Shown one piece after another: positions 1,432 to 14,160 of a stretch of 22,235 bases of DNA. Location of the stretch: positions 1 to 22,235 of IMG/VR virus record IMGVR_UViG_3300032093_000931; one strand, written 5' to 3'. Under the pieces are notes generated by a model. The model had not been told where the DNA came from. It searched no databases and saw only the letters and a list, made by a program, of their open reading frames with translations. The stretch is from a virus. The number at the start of each line of letters is the position of its first letter. The first letter of the stretch is position 1. Made by a program: the position numbers and the translations under genes.

Positions 1432-1628
1432 TACTTTTTGTCCTCATCCTCAAACGTGACCTCAGACAAGGTCCAGAAAAGGAAAGCAAAAATGATAGCA
1501 ACACCAACAACACCACGGGTATCACCAGGTGGAAGAACAATCCAAGCGATAAGCAGACCTACAAGTGTGAAGGACTCTGCGAACCAAGCACGGAAGTGTC
1601 GCCCAAGAAAGGACAAGACACGTTTCAT
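1431..1628 (-). CDS. Small two-helix membrane protein, possible holin or antiholin
   Basis: 65 residues. A basic N-terminus (MKRVLSFLGRHFRAWF) precedes two hydrophobic segments at about residues 20-33 (SFTLVGLLIAWIVL) and 39-55 (GVVGVAIIFAFLFWTLS), joined by a short PPGDTRG turn. The tail is acidic (EVTFEDEDKK). Two helices with a tight turn and charged ends fit a class II-type holin or an accessory lysis membrane protein. The start is well supported: a perfect AGGAGG lies 5 nt upstream of the ATG, inside the last codons of the secreted-protein gene, and the ATGA overlap couples the two. The holin role is inferred from size, topology and position downstream of the M23 peptidase. Confidence 0.7.
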   Translation of the reverse strand: MKRVLSFLGRHFRAWFAESFTLVGLLIAWIVLPPGDTRGVVGVAIIFAFLFWTLSEVTFEDEDKK

Positions 1629-2581
1629 TTAACCCTCCTAGGGTTTGCTAGTTGTGATACGATAATTGCACCAAGAACCACCTGTTGTGCCTCACGGCGT
1701 TCCTCAGGTGTAAACTCGGAACCAAGATTATTAACAAATTGGGCGGCAGCAAGAACTTGCTCGCCACCAGGAATGGACTCTAATGCAGCACCTATGGATT
1801 CAAATATTTGTTGGACTGACTCTGGCAAACTTAGCGAATCATCTTGTACAACATATTCTAACTCTTGCGGAACTTCGTCAACTAAGGAAAGGTCGTCGTT
1901 AAATGTTAAGTCCTCAACAGGTTGCTCTGAAACGTTTGGCTCAACTGGAGCCACAACTTCTGGACTTACTTCAACTGGCACGTCTAGCGAAAACGTTGGA
2001 GACGGTTGAACCTCTGGAGAACTATCTGGACCGGGAAGATTCTCTGGTTGTGACTGAGTCTCTGAAGGAGTCGGAGAAGGCTCAGGAGATGGTTGCTCAG
2101 TTAAAGTCTCAGATGGGCTTGGAGTAGGTGTCAGAGTTTCAGTTGGGGTTGGCAATATTGGTGTTGGGGTTGGTACAGGTGTTGATACTATTATTAAATT
2201 CGTAGACAACAAATAAGACCCAACAGGATATGCGTTACAACACATATAAGCATACGATGTTGCGCGAATAAAATACTCACCAGCAGTTAAAGGCATAGTA
2301 ATAATAGATGCCAAAATGTTTGTGGCACTATGTGCACCATCATCATTATAAGCAAGCCTGACAGCACCCTGCCAAATCTCAATCCAAGAATCAATAAAAT
2401 CATTATCAGGTGTACCAGTAACAGTTGACACAGTTGCATCCACCGGTTCAGTGATAGTTACCGGCACATCCACAAAAGGTGTTGTGCTATCAAGGTTAAT
2501 TGTTACATCATCAGAATAAGACGGATTAGCAACCATAGTTGTTAACACAAATATAACGAAAACAATAGAGAAGTGTTTCAA
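1625..2581 (-). CDS. Secreted Pro/Thr/Ser-rich protein with signal peptide
   Basis: 318 residues from a TTG start. An in-frame TAA lies two codons upstream, and only the TTG gives a full signal peptide: a short basic n-region (KH), hydrophobic IVFVIFVLTTMVA, then a likely cut after NPSYS near residue 23. AGGGA lies 6 nt upstream of the TTG. Residues 24-130 look like a beta-domain resembling the bacterial pre-peptidase C-terminal (PPC) type: DSWIEIWQG, YNDDGAHS, LTAGEYFIRATSYAYMCCNA. Residues ~134-200 are a Pro/Thr/Ser/Glu linker, then an acidic stretch, then a helical C-terminus with a short hydrophobic run (VVLGAIIVSQLA) and a basic end (NPRRVK). The gene sits between the M23 peptidase and two membrane proteins. 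A role in lysis, wall contact or superinfection exclusion is possible; none is proven. It may have come from a host secreted protein. Confidence 0.75.
   Translation of the reverse strand: MKHFSIVFVIFVLTTMVANPSYSDDVTINLDSTTPFVDVPVTITEPVDATVSTVTGTPDNDFIDSWIEIWQGAVRLAYNDDGAHSATNILASIITMPLTAGEYFIRATSYAYMCCNAYPVGSYLLSTNLIIVSTPVPTPTPILPTPTETLTPTPSPSETLTEQPSPEPSPTPSETQSQPENLPGPDSSPEVQPSPTFSLDVPVEVSPEVVAPVEPNVSEQPVEDLTFNDDLSLVDEVPQELEYVVQDDSLSLPESVQQIFESIGAALESIPGGEQVLAAAQFVNNLGSEFTPEERREAQQVVLGAIIVSQLANPRRVK
1634..1639 (-). promoter_or_regulatory. Consensus Shine-Dalgarno for the 65-residue membrane protein
   Basis: AGGAGG, 5 nt before the ATG at 1628, encoded within the final Arg-Arg codons of the upstream secreted-protein gene. 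It is the strongest ribosome site I noticed in this part of the window and fixes the start of the membrane protein. Confidence 0.8.
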
Positions 2582-2586
2582 ATGTT

Positions 2587-2592
2587 ATCCCT
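2587..2592 (-). promoter_or_regulatory. Ribosome binding site supporting the TTG start of the secreted protein
   Basis: AGGGAT on the minus strand, with AGGGA 6 nt upstream of TTG 2581-2579. It directly follows the T-run of the terminator-like hairpin at 2592-2628, so folding of that hairpin could affect access to this site. Confidence 0.5.
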
Positions 2593-2628
2593 AAAAATTA
2601 AGGCTGACGATGACCCTAGAGGTCAGCC
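2592..2628 (-). terminator. Terminator-like stem-loop after the M23 peptidase gene
   Basis: On the minus strand GGCTGAC (2628-2622) pairs perfectly with GTCAGCC (2608-2602) across a 13-nt loop. The stem is followed by TTAATTTTTA. A 7-bp G+C-rich stem plus a T-rich run fits a modest intrinsic terminator. The interrupted T-run and the overlapping alternative stem TGACC/GGTCA inside the loop suggest partial or conditional termination. Confidence 0.5.
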
Positions 2629-2700
2629 AACTCCGTGCAAGTACAACTGCAGTTTCCTTGCATACCACGTGCAAGCAGAGGTGATGGTCCCAGTCTTAAA

Positions 2701-3102
2701 CTATACCGCTAAAATATCTTTAGGGTCAACATCTTTAGAAGCAGACCAACGTGCACCGTCTCTTACTTCAAAATGAAGATGAGGACCACTTGAGTTACCA
2801 GTATTCCCAGATTCAGCAATATGTTGACCCTTTTTAACTTTGGCTCCAGCCTTAACAAAAGTTTCTGAACAGTGAGCATATATCATCCAAAGGTCTTTAC
2901 CATTGATATTGGCCTTAACAATAACTTGTTTACCGTAGGCCGCACCCCAGTTGTTGCCTTGAACTACACCATCACAAGCGGCAACAATGTCAGTACCTTG
3001 TGGTACAGCAAAGTCCACACCAGTGTGTTTTCCAGATTTCCACATCTTACCGGCTTTGCCGTAAGGTGTGGTTATTTTTCCGTTAGCAATAGGTAGCGCC
3101 AA
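2701..3102 (-). CDS. M23-family peptidoglycan endopeptidase (endolysin candidate)
   Basis: 133 residues, a lone M23 (lysostaphin/LytM-type) zinc metallopeptidase domain. Visible zinc and catalytic residues are H26 and D30 (HTGVDFA, the HxxxD motif), H77 (YAHC), and H108/H110 (GPHLHFEV, the HxH motif). The core glycines (GNTGNSSGPHLH) are intact, so it should be active. Such enzymes cut peptide cross-bridges in cell wall. There is no signal peptide or wall-binding domain, so export would need a holin, or the protein could be virion-borne. The start must be TTG at 3102: an in-frame TAA (the stop of the upstream gene) is adjacent, and the next ATG (residue 20) would remove the N-terminal strand (GKITTPYGK) just before H26. 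It directly follows a holin candidate. Confidence 0.9.
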   Translation of the reverse strand: MALPIANGKITTPYGKAGKMWKSGKHTGVDFAVPQGTDIVAACDGVVQGNNWGAAYGKQVIVKANINGKDLWMIYAHCSETFVKAGAKVKKGQHIAESGNTGNSSGPHLHFEVRDGARWSASKDVDPKDILAV

Positions 3103-3354
3103 TTACTTGCCGCCTTTACCTTTAGATGCTTTCTTAAATACTTCATCTACTTCTGCTTGGCTAAGTTCACCATCTTTTAAGAATGCTTTAGCAAGGTCTG
3201 TAACAACACCTGCTACTGCTAGGCCTCCGGCGATTGCTGCTGCTTTAACTGGTTCAACACCAGCAAATGCTCCAACACCAACGGATGGTAAAGCAAAGGA
3301 TATAAATAATGCTAGGCTTCTTAGGATTACGTCTTTGATTACTTGTAATGTCAT
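3103..3354 (-). CDS. Holin candidate, small membrane protein
   Basis: 83 residues. Two hydrophobic stretches are visible at about residues 12-30 (SLALFISFALPSVGVGAFAG) and 35-53 (VKAAAIAGGLAVAGVVTDLA). A hydrophilic tail follows, containing DGELSQAEVDEVFKK and ending in basic KASKGKGGK. Small size, two membrane segments, a charged C-terminus and immediate adjacency to the M23 peptidase (TAA directly followed by its TTG) fit a holin. The ATG overlaps the stop of the preceding 74-residue gene (TAATG). Two more small membrane proteins lie further downstream, so which of the three is the actual holin is open. Confidence 0.65.
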   Translation of the reverse strand: MTLQVIKDVILRSLALFISFALPSVGVGAFAGVEPVKAAAIAGGLAVAGVVTDLAKAFLKDGELSQAEVDEVFKKASKGKGGK

Positions 3355-9361: not shown

Positions 9362-9362
9362 A

Positions 9363-9497
9363 TTACTTAACTTTACCCATCTTCTTCATACTGGACATTT
9401 TCTTAGCCTTCTTCAAATCAGCACCAGTAATCTTCTTACGTGGTTCAGCAATAGCAGCCAAACCTTTTTGTTTCTTAGAATATTTACTGTACGGCAT
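9363..9497 (-). CDS. Very small basic phage protein (44 aa)
   Basis: 44 residues: MPYSKYSKKQKGLAAIAEPR, KKITGADLKKAKKMSSMKKM, GKVK. It is highly basic, with an ADLKKAKK helix. It is supported by tight packing: its ATG overlaps the upstream stop (TAATG) and its own stop is one base before the next ATG. Similar short PYSKYSKKQKKLAAVA-like peptides occur in phage late regions, from memory. Function is unknown; it may bind DNA or act in assembly. Confidence 0.7.
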   Translation of the reverse strand: MPYSKYSKKQKGLAAIAEPRKKITGADLKKAKKMSSMKKMGKVK

Positions 9498-9948: not shown

Positions 9949-12274
<2,326 letters not shown>

Positions 12275-14041: not shown

Positions 14042-14160
14042 TGCAGCCACTCCCTTTCATTAAGTTGTCGTACACCACATACACAAACAGGGGAATCTGT
14101 GTTGGCTTGTACTACCGGGCTTCGGTTACGCTTCTAAGTGCCGGTGCGCTTAGCAGGTTT
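14042..14160 (-). promoter_or_regulatory. 119-bp gene-free leader before the scaffold-capsid genes
   Basis: No ORF or tRNA is apparent. Several weak stem-loops can be drawn on the minus strand: CTAAG/CTTAG near 14152-14133, ACCG/CGGT near 14126-14114, and ACAG/CTGT near 14100-14087. The region is more G+C-rich than its neighbours near 14110-14150. A promoter or RNA leader boosting capsid expression is plausible, but I see no good -35/-10 pair. Function is inference. Confidence 0.35.
14050..14057 (-). promoter_or_regulatory. Shine-Dalgarno choosing the ATG of the scaffold gene
   Basis: AAAGGGAG on the minus strand. Spacing is 8 nt to ATG 14041, but zero to the upstream GTG at 14050, which therefore is unlikely to be the start. 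Confidence 0.6.

Follow-up and report, generated by a model that had tools for sequence, protein, structure and literature searches.

What occupies the 119-nt gap behind the endolysin gene in the late region of IMG/VR record IMGVR_UViG_3300032093_000931? The record belongs to a 22 kb phage sequence of 41% G+C, and the whole stretch analysed here (positions 1 to 22,235; 'the window') carries its late genes on the minus strand, including a capsid gene (Phage_capsid_3) and tail and fibre-like genes. A preliminary description of the DNA, made from the sequence alone, had read the gap as a leader with mutually exclusive hairpins, an attenuator or switch for the secreted and membrane proteins encoded downstream. 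The comparison with related phages described below points instead to a free-standing small RNA (sRNA) gene.

The late region and the gap behind the endolysin gene

In the direction of the late genes, the order is a weakly holin-like membrane protein, the M23 endolysin, the gap, a secreted protein and two small membrane proteins. The immediate surroundings are as follows:

3103–3354, minus strand: 83-aa membrane protein (weak match to phrog_443, holin, E 1.7e-4; best PHROG match phrog_26427, 1.1e-14, annotated 'nuclease')
2701–3102, minus strand: M23 peptidase (endolysin), upstream neighbour of the element (Pfam PF01551, 2e-29; PHROG endolysin families)
2593–2691, minus strand: small RNA element, from GGGACC to the T-rich tail, about 99 nt (conserved block of ~96 nt)
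2587–2592, minus strand: AGGGAT, putative ribosome site of the secreted gene
1625–2581, minus strand: secreted Pro/Ser/Thr-rich protein, TTG start at 2581, downstream neighbour

The gap had been called unusual in an operon whose other gaps are mostly 0–25 nt. This is roughly correct, but the operon also has gaps of 57 and 39 nt, and two longer ones at 9362–9496 (135 nt) and 14051–14160 (110 nt). Elsewhere among the late genes are a collagen-like Gly-X-Y protein with GPTGPTG repeats (11052–11927, minus strand) and a 359-aa protein that, by eye, is glycosyltransferase-like and has a repeat-rich C-terminal half (9949–11028, minus strand).

All the motifs previously named in the gap were located on the minus strand where they had been placed. 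The sequence CTTGCACG occurs twice (2675–2668 and 2641–2634) with TGCAAG between the copies (2662–2657), the palindrome AACTGCAGTT lies at 2654–2645, and the stem GGCTGAC (2628–2622)/GTCAGCC (2608–2602) is followed by TTAATTTTT (2601–2593), past the end of which the ribosome site begins.

The window capsid protein is 66% identical to that of the Planktophila phages LanE43AprE7/F5, which infect Ca. Nanopelagicales (PMC10202952), and a host within this order is suggested for the window phage as well. Neither the M23 gene nor the element was found in either of the two isolates.

Distribution and conservation of the element

A search with the M23 protein gave 55 phage loci, and up to 180 nt behind the M23 gene was read in each. 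Besides the window, five IMG/VR contigs carry the element behind the same M23 endolysin gene (L001, L011 and L019, L020 and L021, the last three being identical over the element stretch), always directly after it, and the carriers represent three phage lineages. Loci L002–L009 encode M23 proteins that are 93–98% identical, yet they lack the element, and there the secreted gene begins at the M23 stop codon or a few bases from it (a 0-nt gap). The element is therefore inserted between genes that adjoin one another in relatives. Other loci have different cargo at this junction: a convergent gene (L010, L018), a convergent proteasome-like gene (L012) or an MptE-like gene in the M23 direction (L013). 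In the L019 phage (L069, 3300008453_000559) the element is followed by a convergent 238-aa gene (phrog_7084, 2113–1397, minus strand), and the secreted gene starts ~700 nt beyond the element. This phage group has a hotspot of variable insertion behind the endolysin, and the element is one of its cargoes.

The window and L019 share 78 of 88 element bases, compared with 115 of 196 four-fold-degenerate sites in four neighbouring genes; for the window and L011 the corresponding figures are 77/88 and 164/238. The element is thus better conserved than the four-fold-degenerate sites of the flanking genes. It shows no sign of coding: neither strand has a reading frame shared by all three lineages. In the sense strand of L011 the ATG is followed at once by a stop codon and there are two 1-nt insertions, and the antisense frame shifts. 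A small peptide on either strand was considered and ruled out by these broken frames (indels, stops).

DNA-pattern scans of 2.9 million viral contigs, using different and gapped parts of the conserved block, returned the same five contigs, each with one copy, and no further carriers; among the viral contigs scanned, no carrier fell outside one phage group. Additional pattern-scan matches were rejected as their covariance-model scores were at chance. Weak covariance-model matches in related contigs looked like coding sequence or chance (two were read, and lack the element), and those of a first model (R1), which had included the end of the M23 gene, were coding sequence. Genome contigs gave no exact match to a 20-nt core of the element, nor was it found in 395 genomes from the class of a Streptomyces relative, a search run with stricter filters and without a positive control. 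BLASTn of the element against phage and plasmid collections gave no match at the sensitivity used, and a search of all 4227 Rfam families, riboswitches included, returned nothing at the gathering score and nothing meaningful at E 10.

Fold and ends of the element

Taken alone, the element folds no more stably than its dinucleotide-shuffled versions do (z 0.61 and −0.01, within chance), so that the significance of any structure comes only from the comparison of homologues. The parts recognised by alignment, and the promoter-like signals upstream, are:

2724–2729, minus strand: −35-like hexamer TTGACC, within the 3' end of the M23 gene (consensus match)
2700–2705, minus strand: −10-like hexamer TATAGT, overlapping the M23 stop codon (consensus match; TATAAT in L019, TGATATAAT in L011)
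2681–2685, minus strand: P0 5' strand ATCAC, pairing with 2668–2664 (one double-changed pair, one L011 mismatch; register picked after the fact, with ACCAT, 2688–2684, as an alternative)
2676–2680, minus strand: P1 5' strand CTCTG, pairing with CGGAG (2635–2631) and forming a pseudoknot together with P0 (kept in all; one U-G to U-A change)
2669–2675, minus strand: joining segment CTTGCAC, invariant; first strand of the alternative hairpin with 2662–2657
2664–2668, minus strand: P0 3' strand GTGGT (GTAGT in L019)
2657–2662, minus strand: P2 5' strand TGCAAG (three double-changed pairs)
2642–2656, minus strand: P2 loop GAAACTGCAGTTGTA, in which GGAAACTGCAG and GTAC are invariant
2636–2641, minus strand: P2 3' strand CTTGCA (three double-changed pairs)
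2631–2635, minus strand: P1 3' strand CGGAG (CAGAG in L011)
2602–2628, minus strand: P3, GGCTGAC...GTCAGCC, a terminator-like hairpin whose loop CTCTAGGGTC is invariant (local fold −12 to −13.6 kcal/mol)
2593–2601, minus strand: T-rich tail TTAATTTTT

The clearest covariation is in P2, which reads TGCAAG...CTTGCA in the window, TGTAG...CTACA in L011 and TGTGGG...CTCACA in L019; three pairs are changed on both sides with pairing kept. Only 15 of 88 columns vary, and six of these make up the three P2 pairs. In a shuffle test that permuted the 88 ungapped columns and accepted any helix of at least 5 pairs fully paired in all three lineages, the three double changes were matched by one of 3000 shuffles. 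P0 also changes, pairing ACTAC with GTAGT in L019, and one of its pairs is broken in L011. The whole pseudoknot model including P0 is 98.9% paired with four double-changed pairs, a figure for three lineages and a P0 register chosen post hoc. P3 never varies among the homologues. On three lineages only, RNA secondary structure is thus conserved in the sense that would be transcribed, as expected of a phage small RNA gene.

Both of the competing hairpins proposed earlier can form in every homologue, and refolding between them is possible, as predicted from the pairing. Their covariation differs: the second hairpin (TGCAAG with the 3' CTTGCA) carries the compensatory changes, while the first is preserved by one-sided G-U changes only. 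Neither P2 nor the hairpin with the first CTTGCA takes up the terminator arms.

A promoter-like sequence at the end of the M23 gene (TTGACC-18-TATAGT, 2729–2700) was overlooked in the preliminary description. The site matches the sigma-70-type consensus at 11/12 positions in L019, 10/12 in the window and 9/12 in L001, and at no more than 7/12 in the same stretch of 21 non-carriers. The L019 site, TTGACC-18-TATAAT, ends only a few bases ahead of the conserved GGGACCA, and the two strands of its 39-kb contig together hold just one other 11/12 site. In L011 the −10 is of the extended type (TGATATAAT) and differently placed, and a good −35 is missing. The promoter signal rests chiefly on the −10, because the −35 lies in protein-conserved M23 codons and is present in non-carriers too. 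From the spacing to the −10, transcription is predicted to start near 2691–2693. At the other end, all carriers have the P3 hairpin and T-rich tail, which look like an intrinsic terminator, the T-tract being interrupted by AA. The predicted promoter and terminator are thus sequence matches present in all carriers.

A candidate small RNA gene carried as a moron

By comparison of its carriers and their relatives, the element is a structured, conserved unit that is present or absent as a whole and has promoter-like and terminator-like ends. We consider it probable, though well short of certain, that it is an independently transcribed, non-coding phage sRNA gene of about 95–100 nt with a pseudoknot-like fold, inserted behind the endolysin gene as an 'RNA-only moron'. 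The final codons of the M23 gene, together with its stop codon, would make up a sigma-70-type promoter, with the RNA starting at ~2691. The RNA would fold into a compact, possibly pseudoknotted body of P0, P1 and P2 with the invariant CUUGCAC and GGAAACUGCAG...GUAC segments, and the transcript would end at the P3 hairpin and T-rich tail. That the element is transcribed by itself and ends at P3 is what we infer from these signals; the lineages that support a free-standing RNA are three independent ones only. The terminator would probably damp the downstream co-oriented genes (the secreted gene in the window, L001 and L011) as a side effect.

The main alternative, which we regard as rather unlikely, is that the element belongs to the 3' UTR of the endolysin mRNA as a structured terminator or stabiliser, possibly processed to a 3'-UTR sRNA, and has no promoter of its own. 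Its constant position directly 3' of the M23 gene and its terminator-like final hairpin agree with this, as do the plain terminator-like hairpins seen by eye at the same place in other M23 phages (L028–L036). Against it, a promoter-like −10 is present in every carrier and in 0/21 non-carriers, the closest relatives manage without any 3' UTR, and the conserved sequence, loops included, far exceeds the needs of a terminator.

The attenuator or riboswitch-like leader of the preliminary description is mostly rejected, and we now hold it to be very improbable. The comparison bore out an RNA of conserved structure whose 3' end is terminator-like, the geometry in the window, where the ribosome site begins past the T-run, is suggestive, and the competing hairpins are possible in all homologues. 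The proposed switch for the secreted gene was not supported: in L069 the next gene is convergent, which rules out a leader in that phage and leaves only a free-standing RNA or a 3' UTR there, and the element is accordingly not upstream of, and co-oriented with, such a gene in all members. The alternative hairpin shows no compensatory change, and no anti-terminator strand complementary to the terminator arms was seen upstream by eye. No Rfam riboswitch matched, and a leader inside an operon would not need the promoter-like sequence at the 5' end of the element. Least probable of all is a DNA site (packaging, recombination or a transposition end) acting as folded or duplex DNA, which would fit a variable junction where the element is either whole or missing, but not the promoter- and terminator-like ends in one orientation, the single copy per contig in the pattern scans, or the close relatives, which lack the element and so do not need it.

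For the sRNA gene favoured here, the putative function most likely in our view is regulation in trans by base-pairing or protein binding, late in infection. The window RNA contains ACCUCU twice (2682–2677 and 2623–2618, minus strand), and L011 has CACCTCCT (CACCUCCU), which matches the anti-Shine-Dalgarno core. Several sRNAs of Gram-positive bacteria and actinobacteria with C-rich seeds (6C RNA, RsaE/RoxS) expose CCUC-type motifs able to pair with Shine-Dalgarno sequences. The ACCUCU segments resemble these motifs, which offers a lead, but the element had no meaningful Rfam covariance-model match at E 10; the conserved segments, which resemble an anti-Shine-Dalgarno sequence, might act as seeds for pairing with Shine-Dalgarno sequences, but this is no more than an idea. 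For the L011 phage, the 5' half of the element is predicted to pair strongly with the start of a nuclease-like gene (L138, G011:10740–11114, minus strand) at −46 kcal/mol (shuffled mean −23.9). Such pairing was not seen in the L001 phage, and no predicted mRNA pairing was conserved between carriers.

Morons are genes with their own promoter and terminator, inserted between genes that are adjacent in relatives. Like them, the element sits cleanly between a stop and a start codon, has its own promoter-like and terminator-like ends, and is present or absent among close relatives. It differs in encoding no protein, in a promoter that overlaps the upstream gene, and in carriers not known as temperate. 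We know of no sRNA from phages of Ca. Nanopelagicales, although our literature search was not exhaustive. An endolysin-linked phage RNA, PAK_P4as15, has been described (reviewed in PMC12197685); both are phage sRNAs at an endolysin gene, found in one phage and missing from a relative, but PAK_P4as15 is antisense to the endolysin gene whereas the element is sense and downstream. Non-coding RNAs of actinophages include the right-end RNA of cluster A mycobacteriophages (L5, D29, StarStuff), the L5/D29 region being toxic to the host (PMC5712189), and those of Rhodococcus phage WC1 (PMC10986025). The L5/D29 RNA derives from a region of ~500 nt behind the early promoter and has no evident stem-loop terminator. 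A pseudoknotted RNA of ~100 nt behind an endolysin gene is not described among the cluster A or WC1 RNAs, and BLASTn of the element against the phage collection returned no hit. We file the element among the phage-encoded sRNAs, as a candidate new RNA family on three lineages only.

More tentatively, and with the balance of our judgement against it, the element may stand for a new mobile family of pseudoknotted promoter-RNA-terminator units without protein, which would occupy a lysis-region hotspot in Nanopelagicales phages and control lysis or host translation in trans. In fresh water, Ca. Nanopelagicales rank among the most abundant bacteria. With two lytic phages of the order now in culture (PMC10202952), a carrier could plausibly be isolated and its RNA tested. 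The element also suggests that the concept of a moron can cover genes whose only product is RNA.
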